NCBI RefSeq assembly: GCF_000317895.1
Contig: NC_019567.1
Span: forward strand, 3,472,001-3,536,000
Direction: 5' to 3'
Source: Bdellovibrio bacteriovorus str. Tiberius
GTDB taxonomy: Bacteria > Bdellovibrionota > Bdellovibrionia > Bdellovibrionales > Bdellovibrionaceae
Length of the DNA stretch: 64,000 nt
In this document: positions 3,400 through 50,197 of the stretch, piece by piece
Numbering within the stretch: position 1 is the first letter of the stretch
How the letters are laid out: every line of letters begins with the position of its first letter
The notes under the pieces: generated by a model
Database searches by the model: none
Told to the model about the DNA's origin: nothing
Seen by the model: the letters and a program-made list of their open reading frames with translations, nothing else
Position numbers and translations under genes: made by a program

Positions 3400-3469
3400 A
3401 GAACCTCCGATTTCGGTTGCAGACCTGATATTACAAATCCCCGGAGCGTTGTCTATGATGTTTTAAGGC

Positions 3470-3503
3470 AAAAAAAATCCCGGGGGACTTTCGCCCCCCG
3501 GGC
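3470..3503 (-). terminator. Rho-independent terminator of the barrel gene
   Basis: On the minus strand a GC-only stem (CCCGGGGG type, about 8-9 bp, loop around the bases GCGAAAG) is followed by a run of seven or more T (A tract 3471-3477 on the plus strand). It lies about 70 bases after the stop of the outer-membrane protein gene at 3574. Confidence 0.85.
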
Positions 3504-3573
3504 CCTGCTCACCACCAAACAAGATGTTTCAAGTAGTCATCAAGCTGTCGTACAAGTTGCAATCGTGCTGTAA

Positions 3574-4983
3574 TCAAAAGCTGATGGCGGCTTTAGATGC
3601 AAATCCAAATGTAAACCCGTTATCCAGGTTTCCGTCTGCTCCAGACCCGTTTTTCCAAGCTTCGCCTGGGAACAGAAGACCGACCTGATTCACCCACTGA
3701 ATTTTATCACTGTGTTTGTAAACCACGTCGATATCCCATTCTAGGCCCAGATCTTTTGTAGAATCAACAGAAGAATTCTGGGTCTGCATCAATTGTGCAT
3801 AAACCAGAGTGTTGCGAAGGTCGACTCTTTCGGACCAAGCATAGTTCACGGATGGAGCAAGGTAAATTGCGTTGCTCACGTATTCATCATCCGCAGAATT
3901 TCCAACAGTCAGGTTCGGATTGGAACGATAAGCGTTGGTATTCAGGAAGTCTTTCATGCCCAAACGATGATTGAACAACAACATCGCCACATCATAGTTC
4001 TGATTGAAGGCATAACCACCGAAACCGGAAGAACCACCGTCTTCACCCGTCGCCATACCGGCACGAACTCTGTAATCCCATTTGGATTCTTTAGCTGGAA
4101 CTTCGAATTCCAAAGCCACACCGAAACCATTCAAGGACACAGAATCACCACCTGCGGTCAAAACACCTGTTTCACCGCTCTGGAAACCGGCTTCCAATTT
4201 GAAACCAAAGGAATCAAAACCGCGTCCAAACACCACGTTGGTGCGCTGAACGTTCATGCTTTCACCAACAGTCGCGCCTGCTCCACCGATAGCTTCAACC
4301 TGATCCGGAGTTTGGTAACCCAAAGCCTCTTTCACACCTTTGGAAGTTTCCTGATAAACGCCCAAAGTGGTTTTGTTTTCTGCATTTTCATACTGAAGGT
4401 GCAAACCCATTGTGGAGATAGAACCACCCTGACCGTAGCCAGTGGACTGTTTGCGGCCCAAGGACGGCATGAAGAACCAGTCACCCACCACGATTTTGTA
4501 ACCCACGATATCGCGAGTGTCATACCAGTGGTCGAACAGACCTTTGCCGGCATTGTAAGTCATACCCAAACCGAACTCAAACGGAGCACGACCCACAACC
4601 AAAGCGCCGTATTCCTGGTTCACAGTCAGATAAAGCTGGCTGACACGAACATTGGTGGAACCTTGGTTCGTGGAAGAAGCCGCAGCCGTGTTGGAGTTCA
4701 AACCCCAGATTTCACCCAGCTGAGAATTTGGATAATCCGCGCTGTTCAGGATATCAAAACGGGAAACAACGTTCACACCGTCTGCCGCGATCACAGTCGG
4801 GCTCAGATAAAGATAGTTGGTGCCGTAAGCTTTTCTTTCCGTCGGAGAACCCAAAGACGGACGATCAATCTCAGTCCATTCAAAACGGTAACCACCGCTC
4901 CAATCCAAAGACAGGGCGTGAGCCGCCGGAGTCGCCAATGCGACAGAAAGACCCAATGCTTTCAAAAAGTTCTTTTTCAACAT
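3574..4983 (-). CDS. Outer-membrane beta-barrel (porin-like) protein
   Basis: A 469-residue protein with a signal peptide ending A-A-H-A around residue 23. Alternating hydrophobic/polar strands and aromatic residues run throughout, and the C-terminus ends in Phe (AAISF), as is usual for BAM-inserted barrels. Loop-like stretches rich in Gly, Asn and Ser separate the putative strands. It probably forms a porin or channel; no substrate can be assigned. The gene stands 10 bases downstream of the GroES-tail gene on the same strand, so the two could be co-transcribed and end at the terminator at 3470-3503. Confidence 0.8.
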   Translation of the reverse strand: MLKKNFLKALGLSVALATPAAHALSLDWSGGYRFEWTEIDRPSLGSPTERKAYGTNYLYLSPTVIAADGVNVVSRFDILNSADYPNSQLGEIWGLNSNTAAASSTNQGSTNVRVSQLYLTVNQEYGALVVGRAPFEFGLGMTYNAGKGLFDHWYDTRDIVGYKIVVGDWFFMPSLGRKQSTGYGQGGSISTMGLHLQYENAENKTTLGVYQETSKGVKEALGYQTPDQVEAIGGAGATVGESMNVQRTNVVFGRGFDSFGFKLEAGFQSGETGVLTAGGDSVSLNGFGVALEFEVPAKESKWDYRVRAGMATGEDGGSSGFGGYAFNQNYDVAMLLFNHRLGMKDFLNTNAYRSNPNLTVGNSADDEYVSNAIYLAPSVNYAWSERVDLRNTLVYAQLMQTQNSSVDSTKDLGLEWDIDVVYKHSDKIQWVNQVGLLFPGEAWKNGSGADGNLDNGFTFGFASKAAISF

Positions 4984-5679: not shown

Positions 5680-8052
5680 ATGAAAAACATTTTCAAAGGT
5701 TGTTCACCGAGTGAGTTTCGTACTACTCTGTCATCTATGATTCGACCACGATTAAAGACTATTTTATTGGCTTTTACAATCCTTCTGACGCTTGTAATCA
5801 TCTGCGGGCTTGGCATTGGCGCTTATTCGTACTTTGCGCTCGAGAAAGAACTGACTGCCAAACTGGAATCGAAAAAGTTCATCGTTCCGACTGAATTTTA
5901 CGCAGCTCCACCGACTTTCCAGACACACAGTCTGATCCAGATCTCTGACATCGAGAAACAGCTTCTGCGTCAGAACTATCGCCGTCGCGAGTTCGATCAA
6001 CGACTGCTGTCCGGAGATTACTTTATTGCCACACGCGAGCAGTGCGCCGCCCGTCTGCAGGTGGGTTTGGATGAAAATCAGGACGCTTGCATCGGCTGGG
6101 TCACGCAAGACACCCGCACTCAGGACGTGGACAGCTCCATTCAGATTCTGGTGGTGCAAAAAGACCGTTTGATTTCCCGCATCTTCAAGGGCGCCCCCTT
6201 TGAAGAAGTGCAAGAGGCCGTCAGCGAGGCTCCCCTTCTTGCTCAATATATCGGCAACGAACCGCTGATGCAAAAAACTGTCACTCTGGGTGAAGTACCA
6301 CCGATGTGTTCCAATGCAGTGATGTCCATCGAAGACGCCCAGTTCCTGGAACATGGCGGAGTCAGCTTCAAAGGCATCTTCCGCGCCCTGGTAAAAAACG
6401 TCACTTCCGGTCGCCGGGCCCAAGGGGGCAGCACCATCACTCAGCAACTGGTGAAGAACTATTTCCTGACCAGCGAAAGAACCCTGAAAAGAAAGTATCA
6501 GGAATTCATCATGTCCGTGCTGCTGGAGTCCCGCTTCAGCAAAGACCAGATTCTGGAAACTTATCTGAACGTGATCTATCTGGGCCAAAACGGCGCCTTC
6601 CAAGTGCGGGGTTACGGTGCGGCCGCTCGCTACTATTTTGGCAAAGAACTGACCGATCTGAATATCAGCGAATGCGCGCTGATGGCGGCGATCGTGAACA
6701 GCCCGGGTCTTTACAATCCATTCAAAAAGCCTGAAAACGCCGAGCGCCGCCGCAATCTGGTGCTCACGAAAATGAAGGGCCTGGATTACATCTCTCAGGC
6801 ACAGTTTGACGAAGCCGATCGCCAGCCACTTCCGGGCGCCCCGCGAACGATTGCTTCCGAAACAGCACCGTACTATCTGGATGCAGTTCGCAAGCAACTG
6901 ACGACTCAGGGACTAAGCCCCGATGGATTGAAAATCTATACCGGTCTTGATCTGGAAGCACAGGAAACCGCGCAGAATTCTTTGCGTGGCCATCTGGAAA
7001 ACCTGGAGAAAAACAACAAACACATCTCGGGCCTGAAAGCCAAAGGTCATTCCCTGGAAGGCACCGTTCTGGTCGGCAACAATCAGACAGGCTTGGTCAG
7101 CGTGGTTGTCGGCGGCCGAAACTTCCGCATGACCCAGTTTAATCGCGCCATCGATGGTCACCGCCAGATCGGCTCGATCATGAAGCCCTTCGTTTACCTG
7201 ACGGCCCTGCTGAACAAAACCGAAACCGGCGAGCCTTATACCCCGGTGACTTTGCTGAACGATGAAAAGTTCACTTACAAGTATGAAGGTCAGGCCTGGT
7301 CCCCGGAAAACTATGGCAAGAAATTTTTCGGCACAGTTCCGATGTTCTATGCATTGAAAAATTCCCTGAACGCTGCCACTGCCAGCCTGGGACTGGCGGT
7401 AGGCTTGGGGAACGTCATTGATGTGACCCATGAAATGGGTGTGACTTCGCAGCTTAAATCTTTCCCGGCGATGACTTTGGGTGCGTTTGAAATGTATCCG
7501 AAAGAGGTTTTGCAAAGCTATATGACCCTGGCAGCTATGGGGCAAAAGCCAGCACTGTCCTTTATCAGACGCGCTTTAAATTCGGACAACGTGGAAGTCT
7601 TCGTGCACGATCCCCGTCCGACAGCGACCGTCGATCCTGCCGCAGTGGCGAGTCTGGTCAGCATGATGAAACAAACCATTTTGTCAGGCACGGCTCGTTC
7701 GATCACTCTGAATGGATTCTTCAATCCGGCAGCGGGCAAAACCGGCACCACCAGTGACAACAAGGATGCGTGGTTTGCGGGCTTTACTCCTTATCTGACC
7801 ACCGTAGTGTGGGTCGGTTATGACAACAATCTTCCGCACAAGCTGACTGGTTCTAACGGAGCGGTCCCGGTGTGGACTCAGTTCATGAAAAAGATCGGCA
7901 CCCGGTTCCCGGCAGATGACTTCCCATGGCCGGAAAACACGGAAAAAGTGATGCTGGATCAAAAGACTCTTGAGGCTTTAAATGCCTACAAGGAAGGTGA
8001 CCCAACTCAAGTGGAACTCGTGTTTGACAAGGCGAAATCCCCCGACCTTTGA
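5680..8052 (+). CDS. mrcB: Bifunctional penicillin-binding protein 1b (transglycosylase/transpeptidase)
   Basis: Builds and cross-links peptidoglycan glycan strands on the outer face of the inner membrane. A short cytoplasmic tail and one membrane helix (about residues 25-50) are followed by a UB2H-like region typical of PBP1b. The GT51 domain carries the catalytic glutamate E218 (SIEDAQFLEH) and GGSTITQQL. The transpeptidase domain carries SIMK (Ser499), SLN, and KTGTT (K687). AAAGG 6-7 bases before the ATG at 5680 supports this start, but only 26 bases then separate it from the divergent GroES-tail gene. A start at 5737 (MIRPRLK) would leave more room for promoters. Length 790 is normal for the family. 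Confidence 0.93.
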   Translation: MKNIFKGCSPSEFRTTLSSMIRPRLKTILLAFTILLTLVIICGLGIGAYSYFALEKELTAKLESKKFIVPTEFYAAPPTFQTHSLIQISDIEKQLLRQNYRRREFDQRLLSGDYFIATREQCAARLQVGLDENQDACIGWVTQDTRTQDVDSSIQILVVQKDRLISRIFKGAPFEEVQEAVSEAPLLAQYIGNEPLMQKTVTLGEVPPMCSNAVMSIEDAQFLEHGGVSFKGIFRALVKNVTSGRRAQGGSTITQQLVKNYFLTSERTLKRKYQEFIMSVLLESRFSKDQILETYLNVIYLGQNGAFQVRGYGAAARYYFGKELTDLNISECALMAAIVNSPGLYNPFKKPENAERRRNLVLTKMKGLDYISQAQFDEADRQPLPGAPRTIASETAPYYLDAVRKQLTTQGLSPDGLKIYTGLDLEAQETAQNSLRGHLENLEKNNKHISGLKAKGHSLEGTVLVGNNQTGLVSVVVGGRNFRMTQFNRAIDGHRQIGSIMKPFVYLTALLNKTETGEPYTPVTLLNDEKFTYKYEGQAWSPENYGKKFFGTVPMFYALKNSLNAATASLGLAVGLGNVIDVTHEMGVTSQLKSFPAMTLGAFEMYPKEVLQSYMTLAAMGQKPALSFIRRALNSDNVEVFVHDPRPTATVDPAAVASLVSMMKQTILSGTARSITLNGFFNPAAGKTGTTSDNKDAWFAGFTPYLTTVVWVGYDNNLPHKLTGSNGAVPVWTQFMKKIGTRFPADDFPWPENTEKVMLDQKTLEALNAYKEGDPTQVELVFDKAKSPDL

Positions 8053-16217: not shown

Positions 16218-16548
16218 ACAGGATTTATCGGAACCCTTAGGCTCCCGCTGAAGACTTTTCCCCTCTGAAAATCACCCGATTTCCGTATTAAGTTGGTTCT
16301 TCGGGTTGATTTGAGAATATGGAATCTTCCTCTCGTAAAAGTGCGAACTTTTCTTTGAAAAATGGAGGTTGTTTAAGAGTTTCCTCGCCTTTCCCGCGAG
16401 CCCTCGGACGTAGGGACCTTTTAGACACCCCCTGAAATAGTTTCCTTTTGCTCCCAGCCCCTCGAAAAGAGGCCAAAAATACACCACCTTACGCATTCCT
16501 AACTATATGAAATTACTTAATTAAGTTAAGGCCTTGCCGTGTCTCATT
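16218..16548. other. 331-base intergenic region upstream of the radical SAM gene
   Basis: This is the widest gene-free stretch in the window, between the divergent propeller lipoprotein and radical SAM genes. A 74-codon minus-strand frame (16272-16496) has no family resemblance and I do not believe it is coding. A perfect 12-bp palindrome, ACTTAATTAAGT (16515-16526), lies 22 bases before the probable radical SAM start in an AT-rich patch; it could be an operator. No convincing -35/-10 pair or structured RNA was recognised. Confidence 0.5.
16515..16526. promoter_or_regulatory. Palindrome upstream of the radical SAM operon
   Basis: ACTTAATTAAGT is a perfect 12-bp inverted repeat inside an AT-rich stretch just before the radical SAM gene. 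Its position fits a regulator binding site near the promoter or leader. It could also arise by chance in AT-rich DNA. Confidence 0.3.
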
Positions 16549-17865
16549 ATGGAACGCTTATTGCAATACCTTGGACTGACTATGGAACAAAGACGATTTA
16601 AAGACATTGTGGCATTCAAATGGAACCAAGGAGCTCCCTTGGCTTTCCACGCCCGCAATCTTGAAATCGCCGAAATTTCTGAGGACACCTGGAACCAGAT
16701 GAACCAGGAATCCCTGGGTGCTGACGACGCCGCCATGGCGCTGAAAAACTGGGAGCTGGAAAACAGCCCTGACGTTAAATCCGGCCGCCTTTCAGTGGGC
16801 ATTCGCAGCCTGACCATCAACGTGACTCAGATCTGCAACTTGAAATGCACTTATTGTGCAGCCGGTGGTGACGGAACCTATGGTTCCGCACAAACCAAAA
16901 TCAACGTTGAAAAAACGTTGCCGCAATTGAAGTTCTTCCTGGAGCGTGTTCCTGCTGGTGGCCGATTCAACATCACCTTCCTGGGCGGCGAACCTTTGCT
17001 TTACCCGGATGGCATTCAGGAAATCGGCAACTATGTTCGCCTGATGACCGCAGGTCAAAACATTCACGCTTCTTTTTCGATTGTGACCAACGGCACTTTG
17101 ATCAATGAAAGAACTTTGAAAGTTCTGACTTCCTTGAAAACCAATGTCACCGTCAGCTTGGACGGCCCGGCTGAAACCAACGACAAGGCCCGCCCCTCCA
17201 AAGACGGCCGCGGCAGCACTTCGTTGGTGGTTGAAGGTCTAAAGCAGCTTTCTGCTGTTCGCGAATCCCTGGGTCGTTTGACTTTGCACGGTGTTTTCAA
17301 CCGCGAAAACCTGGAGCTGGTGAAAGCCTATGAGTTCTATAAAACCCTGAATGCGGACCGCTACGAGTTCACTTATTCAGTGGAGGAAAATGACGACGCC
17401 AGCAACAAGCTGTTCGTCGATCAGATGAATCAAATCGCTGAAATGGCCTTCAAAGCCGGCGGCGAAGAAGAGCTTCGCAAAGTGGGCATCTTCGACCAGT
17501 ACTTCAATGCTCTGGACAATCAGCAGCAGATGGAAAACTTCTGCGGCTCTGGCAAATCCTTCCTGATGATGGATGCCAAAAACAACCTGTTCACCTGCCC
17601 ATGGGAAGTGGGGAACAAGGAAGAACAAGTCGGACAAGGCACTGACGTTGACTTTGCCCGCATGGAGGCCGAACAGGCGCCATTGATTGAAAAAAACAAC
17701 TGCCAAAGCTGCTGGGCTCGATTCCTGTGCGGTGGCGGCTGCATGTTCATCCACAAGAAAGGCACGGGCAGCAAGCACCAAAAGGACGGTCAGTTCTGCT
17801 TCCGCACGCGCAGCTTGATTGGAACCACTTTTATGTACTATAAATTAAGCAGGGCAACCTGCTAG
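16549..17865 (+). CDS. Radical SAM/SPASM peptide-maturase-like enzyme
   Basis: The [4Fe-4S]-SAM site is CNLKCTYC (Cys96, Cys100, Cys103 counted from the ATG at 16549), followed by the SAM-contact motif GGEP. An N-terminal region of about 80 residues could act as a peptide-recognition element. The C-terminal SPASM domain has Cys332, 350, 385, 388, 394, 398 and 417 plus a terminal Cys438, enough for two auxiliary clusters; the CGSGKSF and CQSC/CGGGC segments resemble RiPP maturases. A TTG at 16534 and an ATG at 16582 are alternative starts; none has a strong ribosome site. A 38-codon gene starts 8 bases after the stop, so this enzyme probably modifies that peptide. The crosslink type cannot be predicted. 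Confidence 0.9.
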   Translation: MERLLQYLGLTMEQRRFKDIVAFKWNQGAPLAFHARNLEIAEISEDTWNQMNQESLGADDAAMALKNWELENSPDVKSGRLSVGIRSLTINVTQICNLKCTYCAAGGDGTYGSAQTKINVEKTLPQLKFFLERVPAGGRFNITFLGGEPLLYPDGIQEIGNYVRLMTAGQNIHASFSIVTNGTLINERTLKVLTSLKTNVTVSLDGPAETNDKARPSKDGRGSTSLVVEGLKQLSAVRESLGRLTLHGVFNRENLELVKAYEFYKTLNADRYEFTYSVEENDDASNKLFVDQMNQIAEMAFKAGGEEELRKVGIFDQYFNALDNQQQMENFCGSGKSFLMMDAKNNLFTCPWEVGNKEEQVGQGTDVDFARMEAEQAPLIEKNNCQSCWARFLCGGGCMFIHKKGTGSKHQKDGQFCFRTRSLIGTTFMYYKLSRATC

Positions 17866-17873
17866 AGGAAACC

Positions 17874-17990
17874 ATGACACAGCAAACACATATCAAAAAA
17901 ATCAAACCTCTGAAGCCCAAACCTTCATCCACTACCAAGCTGGCCGGTCCTGGCGGCGGTAATGGCGAAGGCTGCATCCCGGTTCGCTAA
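17874..17990 (+). CDS. Putative RiPP precursor peptide (38 residues)
   Basis: A short gene directly behind the radical SAM gene, with AGAGGA 4-5 bases before its ATG. The first half is a Lys/Pro-rich, leader-like segment (KKIKPLKPKPSSTTK). The second half is Gly-rich with a single Cys at position 34: AGPGGGNGEGCIPVR at the C-terminus. Small size, a Gly-rich C-terminus with one Cys, and a tight position behind a SPASM enzyme all match the layout of thioether or cyclophane RiPP precursors. I know no named family with this exact core. The next gene (CHASE2 kinase) begins 33 bases later on the same strand. No exporter or leader peptidase gene is adjacent. Confidence 0.7.
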   Translation: MTQQTHIKKIKPLKPKPSSTTKLAGPGGGNGEGCIPVR

Positions 17991-18023: not shown

Positions 18024-19904
18024 ATGACTCTTCCTCCCTCCCTTAAAGAGAAATCCGGAGCCTCCAAAAGACGCTCCTATCAGGCGCTTGCGCTGCGAAT
18101 GTTGTTCGCAGTGGGGATTTCTTTTTTCATCGGCCAGACCAACCTGGATTATCTTGAGTCCTACCTTTACGATCTGCGCGTTCGCACCAAAATCATCAAT
18201 TCCACTTCCGGCAATGTCGAGCTGATCTATATCACTCCCCAGACGGTACAGTTCTATAAGGGCTATCCCTCTGCCCCGGAACAAATCGCCCTTTTAAAGG
18301 CCCTGAATGACAGTGGTGCCAAAGCCATTGCCTATGATTTTGCCTTTGATGAAGTTCCGGGTACCACGGACGAAAAGAACGCGTGGGAATCCGCGATTGT
18401 TTCTTCTCCGCATGTCTTTGTTGCCGGTCGCACGACGCCAATGAAGGGCGAAGAAAATCAGATGTTCCTGCAAGAGCCTCTGGAACAAGTCTCTATTTCT
18501 CCGGCCCCAAAAACCACGGACCTTGTGAACTTTGCCAAAGACGGCGTCACCCGTCGTATGATTCTGACTTATCAGGACCGTCCGATGCTGCCCGTGCGTC
18601 TGGCAAGCCTGGTGAATCCCCAGACCATGCAGATTGAAAGCATCCGCGGTCAGTTTGATTTCTATGGAACCGATCAGGCGTACATTGATTTCCACCCGGC
18701 GCGCTCTTATCCGGCGACTTCGTTTGAATCCATTCTAAAGGGCGAAGCGGACTTGTCCCGCTTCAAAGACAAGATCGTTCTGATCGGGACGGATCTGGGC
18801 TTGAACGAAGCTGAATACATCATGACTCCGTTCAGCCGCGAAGTGACGGCCATGACCCGCATCGAAATGCAGGCCAACGTCATCGACACATTGATCAAAA
18901 ACTCCGGTCCAGTGAAAGTCTCCGGCTATTTAAGCTGGTTGTTCATTTTGGCGGCGTCCATTCTGACCACTCAAGTGGTGCTGACAATGAAGCCCACACG
19001 CGGTCTGATCGTTCTGGGCGCGACCCTGCTGGGGTTTGTTGTTCTGTGTGCGGGGGCTTACTGGGCGTTCGGGCTGTGGTTGCCGATGGCGGCACCTTTG
19101 CTGACGATCTTCCTGTGTTATTACTTCTTCATTCCGTACCGTCTGATCGTGGAAAACCGCCGCAGCTGGGAATACTATCAGAAAAATAAACTGCTCAGTC
19201 AGGTGGAAGAACTTAAAACGAACTTTATTTCGATGATGTCCCATGACCTGAAAACACCGATTGCGCGCATTCAGGGGATGACGGATGTGATTTTGACGGA
19301 CTCGGTAGCCCTAAGCAACCAGCAGCGTGAAGCTGTGGACACCATCAAGCATTCCTCGGATGATTTGCTGAAGTTTATCAACGCCATCTTAAGCTACGGT
19401 AAAATCGAAAGCCAGGGCGTGCAGCTGAACATGCAAAGCAAGGACATCAATAACCTTTTACAAGAAGTTATCCGCAAGCATGAATTCCTGGCCAAGGTGA
19501 AACGCATTCAGATCGTGTCGGAACTGGAGCCTATGTTCCCCGTTCAGGTCGACCCTGAGCTGATGAAACAGGTGTTTTCTAACCTGGTGGAAAACGCCAT
19601 CAAGTACAGCCCCGAAGACACGAAAATCATGGTCAGCAGCGAAGAAACACCATCCAAGGTGATCGTTCAGGTGGCCGACCAGGGGCCGGGCATCCCGCAG
19701 GATGAATTGCAAAATATCTTTATGAAGTTCTTCAGATCGAAAAACGTCAAATCCTCCCCTATCAAGGGATCTGGATTGGGCCTGTATCTGGCGAAATACT
19801 TCACGGAATTACATCAGGGAAACATTTTTGTAGAATCTTCCCATGGTAATGGTTCCACATTTACGGTAGAACTACCCATCGAACAAGGGGGCACTCATGC
19901 TTAA
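18024..19904 (+). CDS. CHASE2-domain sensor histidine kinase
   Basis: A 626-residue membrane kinase. The order is: N-terminal membrane helix (about residues 22-38), an extracytoplasmic CHASE2-like sensor (to about 290, beginning YLYDLRVRTK), three closely spaced membrane helices (about 295-375), a short coiled segment, a HisKA domain with phospho-acceptor His407 (SHDLKTP) and a HATPase domain (NLVENAIKYS, DQGPGIP, GSGLGLYLAK). It overlaps the following NtrC-type regulator by 8 bases, so the two almost certainly form a pair. The position behind the peptide gene suggests, but does not prove, that the modified peptide or its state is sensed. Confidence 0.9.
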   Translation: MTLPPSLKEKSGASKRRSYQALALRMLFAVGISFFIGQTNLDYLESYLYDLRVRTKIINSTSGNVELIYITPQTVQFYKGYPSAPEQIALLKALNDSGAKAIAYDFAFDEVPGTTDEKNAWESAIVSSPHVFVAGRTTPMKGEENQMFLQEPLEQVSISPAPKTTDLVNFAKDGVTRRMILTYQDRPMLPVRLASLVNPQTMQIESIRGQFDFYGTDQAYIDFHPARSYPATSFESILKGEADLSRFKDKIVLIGTDLGLNEAEYIMTPFSREVTAMTRIEMQANVIDTLIKNSGPVKVSGYLSWLFILAASILTTQVVLTMKPTRGLIVLGATLLGFVVLCAGAYWAFGLWLPMAAPLLTIFLCYYFFIPYRLIVENRRSWEYYQKNKLLSQVEELKTNFISMMSHDLKTPIARIQGMTDVILTDSVALSNQQREAVDTIKHSSDDLLKFINAILSYGKIESQGVQLNMQSKDINNLLQEVIRKHEFLAKVKRIQIVSELEPMFPVQVDPELMKQVFSNLVENAIKYSPEDTKIMVSSEETPSKVIVQVADQGPGIPQDELQNIFMKFFRSKNVKSSPIKGSGLGLYLAKYFTELHQGNIFVESSHGNGSTFTVELPIEQGGTHA

Positions 19905-21420
19905 GGTTTTGGTTGTAGACGATGATCAGGGCTTAAGACTTTCGGTAAAGTCCGCACTTTCTGTCACTCAGCGCTTCGAAGTTGATGAAGCATTCGATGG
20001 CGTCAATGCCATGGAAAAAGTGAAGAACGGTGACAAGAAATACGACCTTGTTCTGCTGGATGTCGACATGCCTCGCATGAACGGCCTTGAAGCCCTTCGT
20101 CAGATCAAAGAATTCGATCCGGGCATCATCGTAATCATCATGACAGCTCACGCGACCTTTGAATCTGCCATTCAGGCAGTCAAAGACGGCGCTTACAACT
20201 ATCTGCAAAAACCAGTTGCCGGTGATGACCTGCTGGCTTTGATCGACAAAGCCGTGAACGCCCACAATCTGATTTCCAATATCGCAGCGTCCGCTCCGGT
20301 GATGGTGGAAGAAGGCCGCAAAATCATCGGTCACACTTCCCAGATGCAGAAAGTCTTCAATATCATCCATCGTCTGGCTAAAGTTGAAACACCGGTTCTG
20401 ATCCGTGGCGCTTCCGGTACGGGTAAAGAACTTGTCGCGAAAGCCATCCACTTCAATTCGGCCCGCAAAGACGAAAAATTCGTGGCTATCAACTGCTCTG
20501 CCATCCCAGAGAATTTGTTTGAGTCCGAACTGTTCGGTCACGAAAAAGGATCTTTCACCGGAGCTGATCAGCGCAAGATTGGTAAATTCCAGTTTGCTGA
20601 AGGCGGCACTCTGTTCCTGGATGAAGTGGGCGACATGCCTCAGTTGATGCAGGTGAAAATCCTGCGCGTGCTTCAGGAAAAACTGTTCACTCCAGTGGGT
20701 TCCAACCGCGAATTCCCGACGAACGTGCGTATCATCGCTGCGACCAACCGTCCTTTGGAAGACATGATCAAAGCCGGCACCTTCCGTGAAGATCTGTTCT
20801 ATCGTCTGAACGTGGTACCTATATTCCTGCCGGCTTTGGCTGAACGCAAAGACGACATGGAACACATGGTGAACATCTTTATCCGCAAGTTCAACCAGGC
20901 CCATGGCAAGCGCATCACTGGCATCGCGCCGGATGCCATGGCTGTTTTGAAAAAACACAGCTGGCCGGGAAACATCCGTGAACTTGAAAACGTGATTGAG
21001 CACGCTTTCGTGCTTGAGATGTCCAATGTGATCACGATCGCTTCTTTGCCGGAAGCTTTGTTGATCGCAACTGGCACAAATCTGATCGACGTTCCTCCTG
21101 TTCAGGAAACCGCTCAGAACGTGGCGGCTGCGGGCATCAGCTCAGCAGTTCAGGCTCACGCTTCTTTGGGTGATGACGAAGACAGCGATGTCGGCGGCAT
21201 GGATCTGGACGAAGAAGATGGTGAGCTGATCGCTTACTCTGGTGAAAATCTGGATTTCAACGCCCAGAAAGAAGCTTTTGAGAAAGAATTTATCATCAAA
21301 GCTCTGAAGACTTTCCGCGGACGCATCAATCAGACAGCATTGCATGCGAATATTCCCAAGAAGACGCTTCTGCGCAAGATCGAAAAATACGGCATCATCG
21401 CCAAAGACTATTCGAACTAA
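19897..21420 (+). CDS. NtrC-family sigma54-dependent response regulator
   Basis: A 507-residue activator: receiver domain with phospho-acceptor Asp55 (LLDVDMPRMNG), AAA+ domain with Walker A GASGTGKE, the sigma54-contact loop as GSFTGA (Ser replacing the usual first Ala), Walker B GGTLFLDEVGD, and the WPGNIRELENV motif. A linker of about 90 residues, very acidic near residues 425-445, precedes a Fis-type helix-turn-helix at the C-terminus (LRKIEKYGI). It should activate sigma54 promoters when phosphorylated by the CHASE2 kinase encoded just upstream. I found no convincing -24/-12 promoter in the adjacent intergenic DNA, so its targets are probably elsewhere. Confidence 0.93.
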   Translation: MLKVLVVDDDQGLRLSVKSALSVTQRFEVDEAFDGVNAMEKVKNGDKKYDLVLLDVDMPRMNGLEALRQIKEFDPGIIVIIMTAHATFESAIQAVKDGAYNYLQKPVAGDDLLALIDKAVNAHNLISNIAASAPVMVEEGRKIIGHTSQMQKVFNIIHRLAKVETPVLIRGASGTGKELVAKAIHFNSARKDEKFVAINCSAIPENLFESELFGHEKGSFTGADQRKIGKFQFAEGGTLFLDEVGDMPQLMQVKILRVLQEKLFTPVGSNREFPTNVRIIAATNRPLEDMIKAGTFREDLFYRLNVVPIFLPALAERKDDMEHMVNIFIRKFNQAHGKRITGIAPDAMAVLKKHSWPGNIRELENVIEHAFVLEMSNVITIASLPEALLIATGTNLIDVPPVQETAQNVAAAGISSAVQAHASLGDDEDSDVGGMDLDEEDGELIAYSGENLDFNAQKEAFEKEFIIKALKTFRGRINQTALHANIPKKTLLRKIEKYGIIAKDYSN

Positions 21421-23827: not shown

Positions 23828-24070
23828 TTAAGCCTTCTTGGGAAAGACGGCCTTTTCCAATTTCGCAATCCTCTCTTCAATCGAGCTTCCTTTGGACATG
23901 GTTTTCCGCAGATGCCAGTTCAAATATGTCTGATAGCCCATACCCTGCTTTTCCGCTTCTGCCTCAAGCCACTCCAGCACTTCAGGATCCAAACGAATAG
24001 TCTTAAGAATCTTGATTTCTTTCACAGGCTTTTTTTTCTTCGCTTTGGAAAAATCGTACTCACTCTTCAT
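23828..24070 (-). CDS. BrnA-type antitoxin (ribbon-helix-helix)
   Basis: An 80-residue basic protein. After a Lys-rich N-terminus it contains a CopG/BrnA-like ribbon-helix-helix core (IRLDPEVLEWLEAEAEKQGMGYQTYLNWHLRKTM) and a short C-terminal coil. Such proteins bind their own operator and neutralise the partner toxin. Its start overlaps the end of the toxin gene by 11 bases, the usual toxin-first order of brnTA. A 23-bp dyad upstream of the toxin gene is a likely binding site. Confidence 0.85.
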   Translation of the reverse strand: MKSEYDFSKAKKKKPVKEIKILKTIRLDPEVLEWLEAEAEKQGMGYQTYLNWHLRKTMSKGSSIEERIAKLEKAVFPKKA

Positions 24071-24350
24071 GCAAACCTCGCAGATAATATTCTATTTCCC
24101 GGGATGTCGCTCTTCTTGCTGAGATTATCCGAACTCGCTCAGGACTCAGCCTCTCGCAATAGACAACCACCAGAACTTTTAAATGAGAGGACCGGCCCAA
24201 CCTTAACCAACGGTCTTCACTGGCAGAGCTTTCCTGATCCAACATCTCCAAAGCATAAGAATCCCGAAATGTCGTCACGGCTTCAGAAAATCTAATTCCG
24301 TGCTTTTTGTAGTTACCCTGGGCTTTCTCATCATCCCATTCGAATTCCAT
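24060..24350 (-). CDS. BrnT-type toxin (RelE-like ribonuclease)
   Basis: A 96-residue protein beginning FEWDDEKAQGNYKKHGIRF, the hallmark opening of the BrnT family, and ending in the SARRATSREIEYY motif that carries the conserved basic/aromatic residues of this RelE-like fold. The family acts as an mRNA-cutting, growth-arresting toxin. I chose the ATG at 24350 because GGGGAAG lies about 9 bases upstream; a TTG six codons earlier overlaps that site. It sits directly before its antitoxin and behind a dyad operator. Whether it is active cannot be read from sequence. Confidence 0.85.
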   Translation of the reverse strand: MEFEWDDEKAQGNYKKHGIRFSEAVTTFRDSYALEMLDQESSASEDRWLRLGRSSHLKVLVVVYCERLSPERVRIISARRATSREIEYYLRGLHEE

Positions 24351-24370
24351 ATTACCGTGCTTCCCCAAAA

Positions 24371-48784: not shown

Positions 48785-50197
48785 TCACGACATCTTCTGC
48801 AGAAGAACTTCGAACTCCGTACCACGTCCGTCTTTCACCGGACTGCGCACAGAAACTTTTCCGTCATGCGCTTCGACGACCGCTTTTACAAACGTCAATC
48901 CCAAGCCCATGCCGTATTCAGAGCGGCTCTTGTCGCTGCGATAAAGCTTCTGCCAGATCATGCCGTGTTCATCCGCCGAAATACCCGGCCCGGAATCCGT
49001 CACCCGTATAATGACGTTTTCAGTTTGATTGATGGTTTCAATCGTCACTTCACCACCCGGAGGTGTGTACTTGTGCGCATTATCCAGAAGGTTCGCGACA
49101 ACACGACTGATCAGTTTCGCATCGACCATGGCCCAGTCATGACTGTCGAGCTTCTGAATAACTTTGATGTCTTTTTCTTCGAAGGCCATTTCGTACAGGC
49201 TCATGATCTCTTTTACCAGATCACTGATGAATTTCTTTTCGATCTTCAGCTTCTTACTGCGGTTTTCAGCCTCGGTGATATCCGTCAGCACCTGCAGAAA
49301 GTTCAGGATCTTGTCCGAGTTTTCAAAACAGCTCTGCAAAGCCTCGCGATAGGATTCAACATCCCCTTCACTGGTCAGCGCCAGTTCCGCTCGCCCGCGC
49401 AAACGGGTCACCGGAGTGCGAATATCGTGAGCCAGGTGATCAAAGGCCTCTTTCAGGCCATTCACCAGATTTTCGATCTTATCGAGCATCTTATTGAACA
49501 GAACCTTCAATTCTTCCAGCTCGTCATCACTGCCCCCGATCGGAACACGTGTGGACAGGGAACCGCCTTCAATCTTTTTCATCGAAGTGATCAGCTCACG
49601 CACCGGGCTGAGCGTTCGGTTGGACAGGAACAAGCCCCCCAGGAAACCAATCAAGGCCACCGGAAGAAGCAACCACCAGAAGATCTTTTGCAGGTTGCGC
49701 AACTGCAGACTCAGGCTTTCGGTGCTTTTCCCCACCACCAGACGGCTGCCATCTTTCAGGGTTGTGCCCAGAATGATAATCGTGTCGCCCCCGTGCATTT
49801 CACGCATGGCAAATTCAAAGATCTGACCGCGATGGCGGTTCATTTCTTCTTTAAGCATTTCCATGTTCAATTTGAAGCTGGGGAAGGGCTCGTGATGGAA
49901 GGTCACTTCCCCTTTGGGGCTGAAAACACTGACCAGCAACGCAGCGTCGCGGTCATAGTTGGGAATGTACAGGAAGTAGTCATTAAATTCCCCCAGACCC
50001 CGCACTTCGATGCGGTTGCGGTATTCTTCCAGCTTGGAAGACAGCACGCCACGCTCCTGCTCTTGCAGGCCGTGACTGATCTGAAAATAAAGGAAGCTAA
50101 AGATGACTGTGGAACTTAGAATCAGCACCAGAGAATACGCAAGCGTCAGCTTGGTGCTGATTCGGAAGAGGGTCGGTTTAAGACGACTTGAGAACAT
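48785..50197 (-). CDS. Sensor histidine kinase with HAMP domain
   Basis: A 470-residue kinase: one N-terminal membrane helix (about 17-38), a periplasmic sensor region of about 125 residues, a second helix (about 175-195), a HAMP linker (SNRTLSPVRELITSMKKIEGG), the HisKA motif DHLAHDIRTPVTRLRGRAEL, and a HATPase domain (NLLDNAHKYTPPGG, DSGPGIS, GMGLGLTFVK). It overlaps the regulator gene upstream by 20 bases, so they form one operon, regulator first. It probably senses an envelope signal; the input is unknown. The FecR/barrel pair downstream is a possible target or partner. Confidence 0.9.
   Translation of the reverse strand: MFSSRLKPTLFRISTKLTLAYSLVLILSSTVIFSFLYFQISHGLQEQERGVLSSKLEEYRNRIEVRGLGEFNDYFLYIPNYDRDAALLVSVFSPKGEVTFHHEPFPSFKLNMEMLKEEMNRHRGQIFEFAMREMHGGDTIIILGTTLKDGSRLVVGKSTESLSLQLRNLQKIFWWLLLPVALIGFLGGLFLSNRTLSPVRELITSMKKIEGGSLSTRVPIGGSDDELEELKVLFNKMLDKIENLVNGLKEAFDHLAHDIRTPVTRLRGRAELALTSEGDVESYREALQSCFENSDKILNFLQVLTDITEAENRSKKLKIEKKFISDLVKEIMSLYEMAFEEKDIKVIQKLDSHDWAMVDAKLISRVVANLLDNAHKYTPPGGEVTIETINQTENVIIRVTDSGPGISADEHGMIWQKLYRSDKSRSEYGMGLGLTFVKAVVEAHDGKVSVRSPVKDGRGTEFEVLLQKMS

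Follow-up and report, generated by a model that had tools for sequence, protein, structure and literature searches.

A short gene behind a radical-SAM enzyme

What could a radical-SAM/SPASM peptide maturase act on in a predatory bacterium, and what might its product be for? The question is raised by a 64,000-nt stretch of the Bdellovibrio bacteriovorus str. Tiberius genome (contig NC_019567.1, positions 3,472,001 to 3,536,000 of the forward strand; hereafter the window), in which a maturase gene of this kind is followed by a very short open reading frame. A first-pass annotation of the DNA had proposed this ORF as an overlooked gene with a ribosome site, a natural start spacing, a Lys/Pro leader and a core whose lone Cys is flanked by Gly, Glu and Ile-Pro. 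These features are indeed present: the ORF starts with an ATG 8 nt past the stop of the enzyme gene, AGAGGA lies four bases upstream of this ATG, and the 38-aa product has a Lys/Pro-rich N-terminal half and a Gly-rich C-terminal half with one Cys, which sits between Gly-Glu-Gly and Ile-Pro (Table 1).

Table 1. Positions in the window of the genes and sequence elements discussed in the text
Feature	Position	Strand	Basis
PBP1B-like gene, conserved neighbour outside the operon	5680..8052	+	upstream of the kinase with and without the enzyme; name from sequence reading
Upstream block GAAATAGTTTCCTTTTGC, conserved; may bind the activator	16434..16451	+	near-identical in 15 genus-level upstream regions
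IHF-like block TAAGT-N4-TGAWWTTACTTA, here TAACTATATGAAATTACTTA	16500..16519	+	upstream alignment; IHF role suggested by resemblance to the consensus
Sigma-54 (-24/-12) element TGGAACGCTTATTGCA	16550..16565	+	TGG-N8-TTGCW pattern
Radical-SAM/SPASM peptide maturase	16582..17865	+	427 aa; Pfam Radical_SAM 1.4e-17; NCBIfam PapB 2.6e-55; PDB CteB 5wgg
Ribosome-binding site AGAGGA of the peptide gene	17864..17869	+	read from sequence
RiPP precursor gene (well supported)	17874..17990	+	38 aa MTQQTHIKKIKPLKPKPSSTTKLAGPGGGNGEGCIPVR; conserved in all complete enzyme loci; codon pattern of purifying selection
Leader motif HIKKIKP, probable maturase recognition sequence	17889..17909	+	motif from peptide comparison
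C-terminal core GEGCIPVR, invariant Cys (codon 17973-17975)	17964..17987	+	Cys 70/70; +2 Pro 64/70 or Glu 6/70 (Pro share slightly inflated, see text)
Sensor histidine kinase, periplasmic CHASE2 (residues 34-313)	18024..19904	+	Pfam CHASE2 2.9e-26, HisKA, HATPase_c
NtrC-type sigma-54-activating response regulator	19897..21420	+	Pfam Response_reg, Sigma54_activat 1.9e-71, HTH_8; 62-99% identical, syntenic

We searched for the enzyme in 60 related genomes and found a strong single-copy orthologue in 38 of them, in addition to the genome of the window. In all 38, a short ORF with the leader and a C-terminal Cys directly follows the enzyme, and the same kind of peptide ORF is present at every further locus of a second genome collection where the interval is intact. 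The scan of this collection retrieved further enzyme loci, all of them in Bdellovibrionales/Bdellovibrionota, with identities down to about 35%. From 93 loci, some of which belong to genomes present in both collections, 70 distinct peptides were extracted. Five of the 93 gave no candidate at first; four of these run off a contig edge, and the fifth (L121) encodes MKHIKKTKPTKVNKAYLDKHKHEVIKQAGCEIVYT, which had been missed by a filter demanding C-x-P or C-P. In a genome from another family of the phylum (G063), whose enzyme is only about 25% identical, the peptide ends in ...MKHVKKVKKLKKVANQSPKKDTKKRPEGEPKACSWMSDG. With these two added, a Cys is found in 72/72 distinct peptides, and it is the single Cys in 70/72. 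At L086 (3447-3740), one enzyme gene is followed by two tandem single-Cys peptide genes.

Most of the 70 peptides carry a leader motif of the form [H/F/N/S]-[I/V]-K-K-[V/I/L]. The residue at +2 of the Cys is Pro in 64/70 and Glu in the other six (as C-P-E), a Pro share that is slightly inflated by the extraction filter. No residue N-terminal to the Cys is invariant, with Gly being commonest at both -3 (44/70) and -1 (41/70); the Cys is the one invariant residue of the peptides.

The comparison of synonymous and non-synonymous changes that the first-pass annotation had suggested points in the same direction. Over the 15 codons of HIKK[IV]KP and GEGCIP[VI]R in 12 close relatives, synonymous differences occur at 14 codons and amino-acid changes at two only, both I/V, and the linker between the two blocks varies freely. 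Such a pattern indicates, at the level of codons, purifying selection acting on a peptide. Frameshifts or stops in relatives, which had been named as grounds for rejecting the gene, were looked for with a negative outcome. A chance ORF or an unmodified regulatory leader might be imagined for so short a frame, as neither Pfam nor NCBIfam models the precursor peptide; conservation across families, the codon signature and the strict linkage to the enzyme speak against this, and as the codon pattern already contradicts it we consider its probability negligible. The ORF is a genuine gene that encodes a short peptide and is strongly conserved. Its encoded product, with a leader and a core, lies beside a modifying enzyme, so that its assignment as the precursor of a ribosomally synthesised and post-translationally modified peptide (RiPP) is well supported. 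A search for a second copy of the peptide elsewhere in the same genome gave a best match of only E=0.6.

The enzyme and its probable chemistry

ATG 16582 is the most likely start of the enzyme gene, as homologues begin there; TTG 16534 further upstream is not conserved. Its CX3CX2C motif and SPASM cysteines are invariant in 40 enzyme sequences. The best NCBIfam match is PapB (NF047865), whose cut-off of 340 bits the enzyme misses with a score of 188, and the next are nif11-peptide and SCIFF maturases; the score against the SCIFF maturase model TIGR03974 is 136.6 bits, against a cut-off of 425. In the AlphaFold model (pLDDT 91), the predicted fold is structurally closest to that of CteB, a thioether-forming SCIFF thioether synthase, with Z 37.3 and an rmsd of 2.9 over 399 residues, N-terminal domain included, and with a Foldseek TM of 0.84. 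The A1 profile matches CteB at 9.8e-48. Two hallmarks of sactipeptides and ranthipeptides are found, namely a radical-SAM maturase with SPASM/twitch clusters, as recognised by sequence, profile and model, and a Cys donor in the core, in all of the 72 distinct peptides.

In CteB, an auxiliary cluster has an open site that is accessible to a peptide Cys (PMC8326336). This property, together with the CteB-like fold and the invariant Cys, favours the formation of a single thioether through the only Cys of the peptide. The earlier proposal of a core fit for a single thioether is strengthened by the invariant Cys and the CteB-like enzyme; its acceptor side is less firm, as the crosslink cannot be placed on a peptide that has no invariant acceptor residue, and the thioether itself is a probable rather than an observed product.

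Modification of the Cys-x-Pro segment by other means, such as a C-C crosslink, epimerisation or use of the Cys as a cluster ligand, could explain why conservation of the +2 Pro nearly equals that of the Cys and why no acceptor residue is evident, and SPASM enzymes catalyse many reactions. However, the enzymes most similar in fold and profile (CteB, the PapB family and the SCIFF maturase) form thioethers, and the Cys survives where the Pro is lost (L121 and G063) and disappears where the enzyme does (G029, see below), making a non-thioether product unlikely in our judgement. We regard a small redox cofactor or another excised molecule, similar to PQQ or mycofactocin, as a very improbable end product: the short conserved C-terminal segment and the broad vertical conservation do resemble cofactor systems, but the cassette has no peptidase, dehydrogenase or glycosyltransferase partners and the residues around the Cys vary widely. 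A single thioether near the C-terminus remains the reading that we prefer.

A four-gene operon with a sigma-54 promoter

The genes for the enzyme, the peptide, the CHASE2 kinase and the NtrC-type regulator lie next to one another on the same strand in 38/38 genomes, and the same order is found at the further loci wherever contigs allow. The cassette is single-copy, and the operon contains no transporter, leader peptidase or immunity genes. When the pattern TGG-N8-TTGCW was scored within 130 nt upstream of the enzyme gene, with dinucleotide shuffles as the null, a sigma-54 element was found at 54/70 distinct loci, compared to 0.43 expected; the strict pattern is absent from 16/70. Within the genus, the upstream block and the IHF-like block are conserved as well. 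Together with the sigma-54 element they give the arrangement that one would look for in a promoter under NtrC-type activation, and an activator of the NtrC type is encoded by the operon itself. Judged by gene order and promoter pattern, the four genes form one fixed operon behind a conserved sigma-54 promoter. Since this operon ends in an activator of the kind that its promoter needs, the simplest reading is that it is very likely autoregulated.

The upstream block is unique in its own genome at 0 mismatches, and a regulon search of that genome with the 18-nt block and the strict sigma-54 pattern gave no convincing further target. An inverted repeat upstream of the kinases, GGTGTCA-N4-TGACACC, was considered as an activator site and dropped, as it was not significant against shuffles.

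Lambert et al. (2010) described the adjacent two-component genes Bd3359/Bd3360 as induced specifically in predation (PMC2797640). Counting genes from locus-number anchors (HU Bd3382 and FlgB Bd3407, PMC12546842; Bd3393, PMC3818213) gives about Bd3361-3365 for the kinase/regulator pair of the operon; a single further two-component pair is nearby, at about Bd3366-3370. It is plausible that the pair studied here is Bd3359/Bd3360. Bd3393 (PMC3818213) was also considered as the kinase of the operon, but the gene order makes it another kinase (window 48785-50197).

Across the order, the two-component pair keeps a PBP1B-like gene nearby, a hint that the pair may be linked to the cell wall. Elsewhere in the window (23828-24368, minus strand), a small gene pair between lspA and a response regulator resembles, by eye, a BrnA/BrnT-type toxin-antitoxin; in the relative G005 the matching gap is about 19 nt. 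Among the enzyme-bearing loci, the longest kinase branches belong to L072, L079 and L121, which also encode the most atypical peptides, possibly a case of joint decay or divergence of kinase and peptide.

Loci without the enzyme and a second maturase type

Of the 53 good genomes of the family, 51 have the enzyme, and one of the two others (G007) breaks at a contig edge. The kinase/regulator pair, counted by its sensor half, occurs in 114/291 genomes of the phylum, although the remotest of these hits could be different CHASE2 kinases; the enzyme occurs in 59. In relatives at the level of the order, the sigma-54/kinase/regulator unit is retained in the absence of the enzyme, and at many of these loci the sigma-54 element lies directly before the kinase, usually at about 30-150 nt. 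Loci with and without the enzyme are orthologous places, because the PBP1B-like gene lies upstream in both.

One genome, G029 (99% complete), falls within the enzyme-bearing clade of a kinase tree built by a quick method, and a search for the enzyme did not find it there. Its locus encodes MKKMNQENQAPSFAQSWNGNGKPPFNLDPNGNGGGGTKPPFT (L199, on the reverse complement, from about 134 nt to 5 nt ahead of the kinase), in which the Gly-rich core is retained and the Cys is missing. In this one case, the loss of the Cys with that of the enzyme is as expected if the Cys is the target of the enzyme. Another locus, L200 (G042), encodes on the reverse complement (3431-4930) a different radical-SAM protein of 499 aa, divergently oriented upstream of the CHASE2 kinase, with a C-terminal part that is acetyltransferase-like by eye.

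In four further genomes without the radical-SAM enzyme (G040, G043, G044 and G054), the sigma-54 element is followed by a short Lys-rich ORF with a ribosome site and then by the kinase (loci L202, L205, L206, L208 and L276, in G044, G043, G054 and G040). The ORF products, MKSLKKKLRKSTPVSKIAFSGLKAD, MEFKSKIKKEAVKKPKGMISTSPSEYF, VKTNRKLNGLRKKIKTVKSQSVVLSPVPRNGYAAGVILTNPASD and MKLTVSVLNKVKKGASRKIKTKATSKPHDIT, contain no Cys, and in each, one acidic residue lies no more than four positions from the end. These genomes also have, without exception, a gene for an ATP-grasp ribosomal-peptide maturase of the TIGR04187/TIGR04184 families (below cut-offs), which adjoins the kinase locus in three and lies in G040 on another contig, beside a PBP1B-like gene. 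Related ligases were found in G049, beside a PBP1B-like gene where the contig ends, and, more weakly (E 5e-19), in G185, away from its kinase locus. No ATP-grasp maturase was found in the searched genomes that bear the radical-SAM enzyme. With four loci, and peptides too diverged to align, we regard an exchange of maturases at one locus as a strong lead. These findings, the four-gene operon and its sigma-54 promoter go beyond the first-pass annotation.

It is tempting to speculate that the Bdellovibrionales locus is a peptide slot, in which a C-terminally constrained peptide is required as CHASE2 ligand or feedback signal and its ring may be closed by unrelated chemistries from one family to another, a radical-SAM thioether or a probable ATP-grasp lactam or lactone. 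We put this forward tentatively. If true, it would provide a ligand for CHASE2, a domain without a known ligand, and the alternation of thioether and ATP-grasp chemistry would be an unusual case of exchangeable chemistry in a circuit position that is kept.

Possible role of the peptide

Taken together, the data can be accommodated in a model that we consider probable as a whole. The CteB-like enzyme would bind the HIKK[VI]KP leader, with its N-terminal domain as the probable docking site, and would form one small thioether ring from the invariant Cys, close to the C-terminal end of the peptide. The regulator very likely activates the sigma-54 promoter of its own operon, so that production of the peptide and of the sensor itself would rise in response to an envelope or periplasmic cue at CHASE2. 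The finished peptide would then most likely serve this circuit as an endogenous signal or feedback ligand, and not act as an antibiotic. The position of the peptide gene between promoter and sensor suggests signalling or feedback, and an antibiotic role is disfavoured since the peptide is near-universal, single-copy and conserved, in an operon that lacks genes for transport or immunity.

Two observations count against a signal. The kinase/regulator pair occurs in many genomes without the peptide, which is therefore not obligatory for it, and the operon has no exporter that would bring the peptide to the periplasmic CHASE2 domain. Because sensors without peptides exist, and sensing hence does not need the peptide, a serious rival is that the RiPP is an exported effector, placed under kinase/regulator control and directed at the prey envelope or at competitors. 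The predation-induced Bd3359/Bd3360 would fit an effector if they are the pair of this operon, although the gene count given above puts that pair nearer Bd3361-3365. However, a transporter, peptidase or immunity gene is lacking for an effector as well, the cassette is single-copy and near-universal in the family, and the sequence is conserved and not diversified as is usual for antimicrobials. We therefore view the effector as possible but clearly the weaker explanation, and favour an endogenous signal.

The peptide is near-universal in the predator family, including the model strain, where it is genetically accessible. Two questions are thereby made testable: whether predators signal with cyclic peptides, and what a CHASE2 domain senses, described so far as unknown (PMC5192318). 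Our literature search found no published Bdellovibrio RiPP, and nothing pertinent on a Bdellovibrio radical-SAM RiPP, on CHASE2 with radical SAM or on graspetides with CHASE2.

Comparison with known systems

The Bdellovibrio system shares with SCIFF (CteA/CteB, TIGR03974) the enzyme fold with its N-terminal leader-binding region, the SPASM clusters, a short precursor beside the enzyme and broad conservation. For SCIFFs, a quorum-sensing role in clostridia has been proposed, and the grounds given above against a bacteriocin have been put forward for them as well (PMC8326336). The two differ in that SCIFF has six Cys in about 45 residues, whereas the peptides described here have one Cys, a HIKKxKP leader and a CxP motif, and are linked to a CHASE2 kinase and a sigma-54 regulator; with one Cys and its low score against the SCIFF model, the system falls outside SCIFF. 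The PapB/freyrasin maturases are likewise radical-SAM enzymes with SPASM and give the best NCBIfam match, but the enzyme scores well below the NF047865 cut-off, outside that family, and its peptide has one Cys, compared to six Cys-Asp crosslinks in freyrasin (PMC8326336).

The graspetides, made by ATP-grasp ligases of the MvdC/MvdD type, are approached by the four genomes of the same order in which a graspetide-type ligase and a short Cys-free peptide belong to the same kinase locus; their chemistry is different, and they lie outside the window. A parallel for the expected single ring is NxxcA, in which one Cys forms one thioether (Cys23-Asn20; PMC8326336). Unlike NxxcA, the Bdellovibrio peptides have no conserved Asn at -3, where Gly is commonest, and they come from a different organism group and context. 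The first-pass annotation set a core with one Cys apart from multi-Cys sactipeptide cores, but it overstated the distinction, given that NxxcA and SkfA each carry a single thioether (PMC8326336). RiPPs with a single thioether are thus already known, and the unusual parts of the present system are its circuit and the apparent exchange of maturases.
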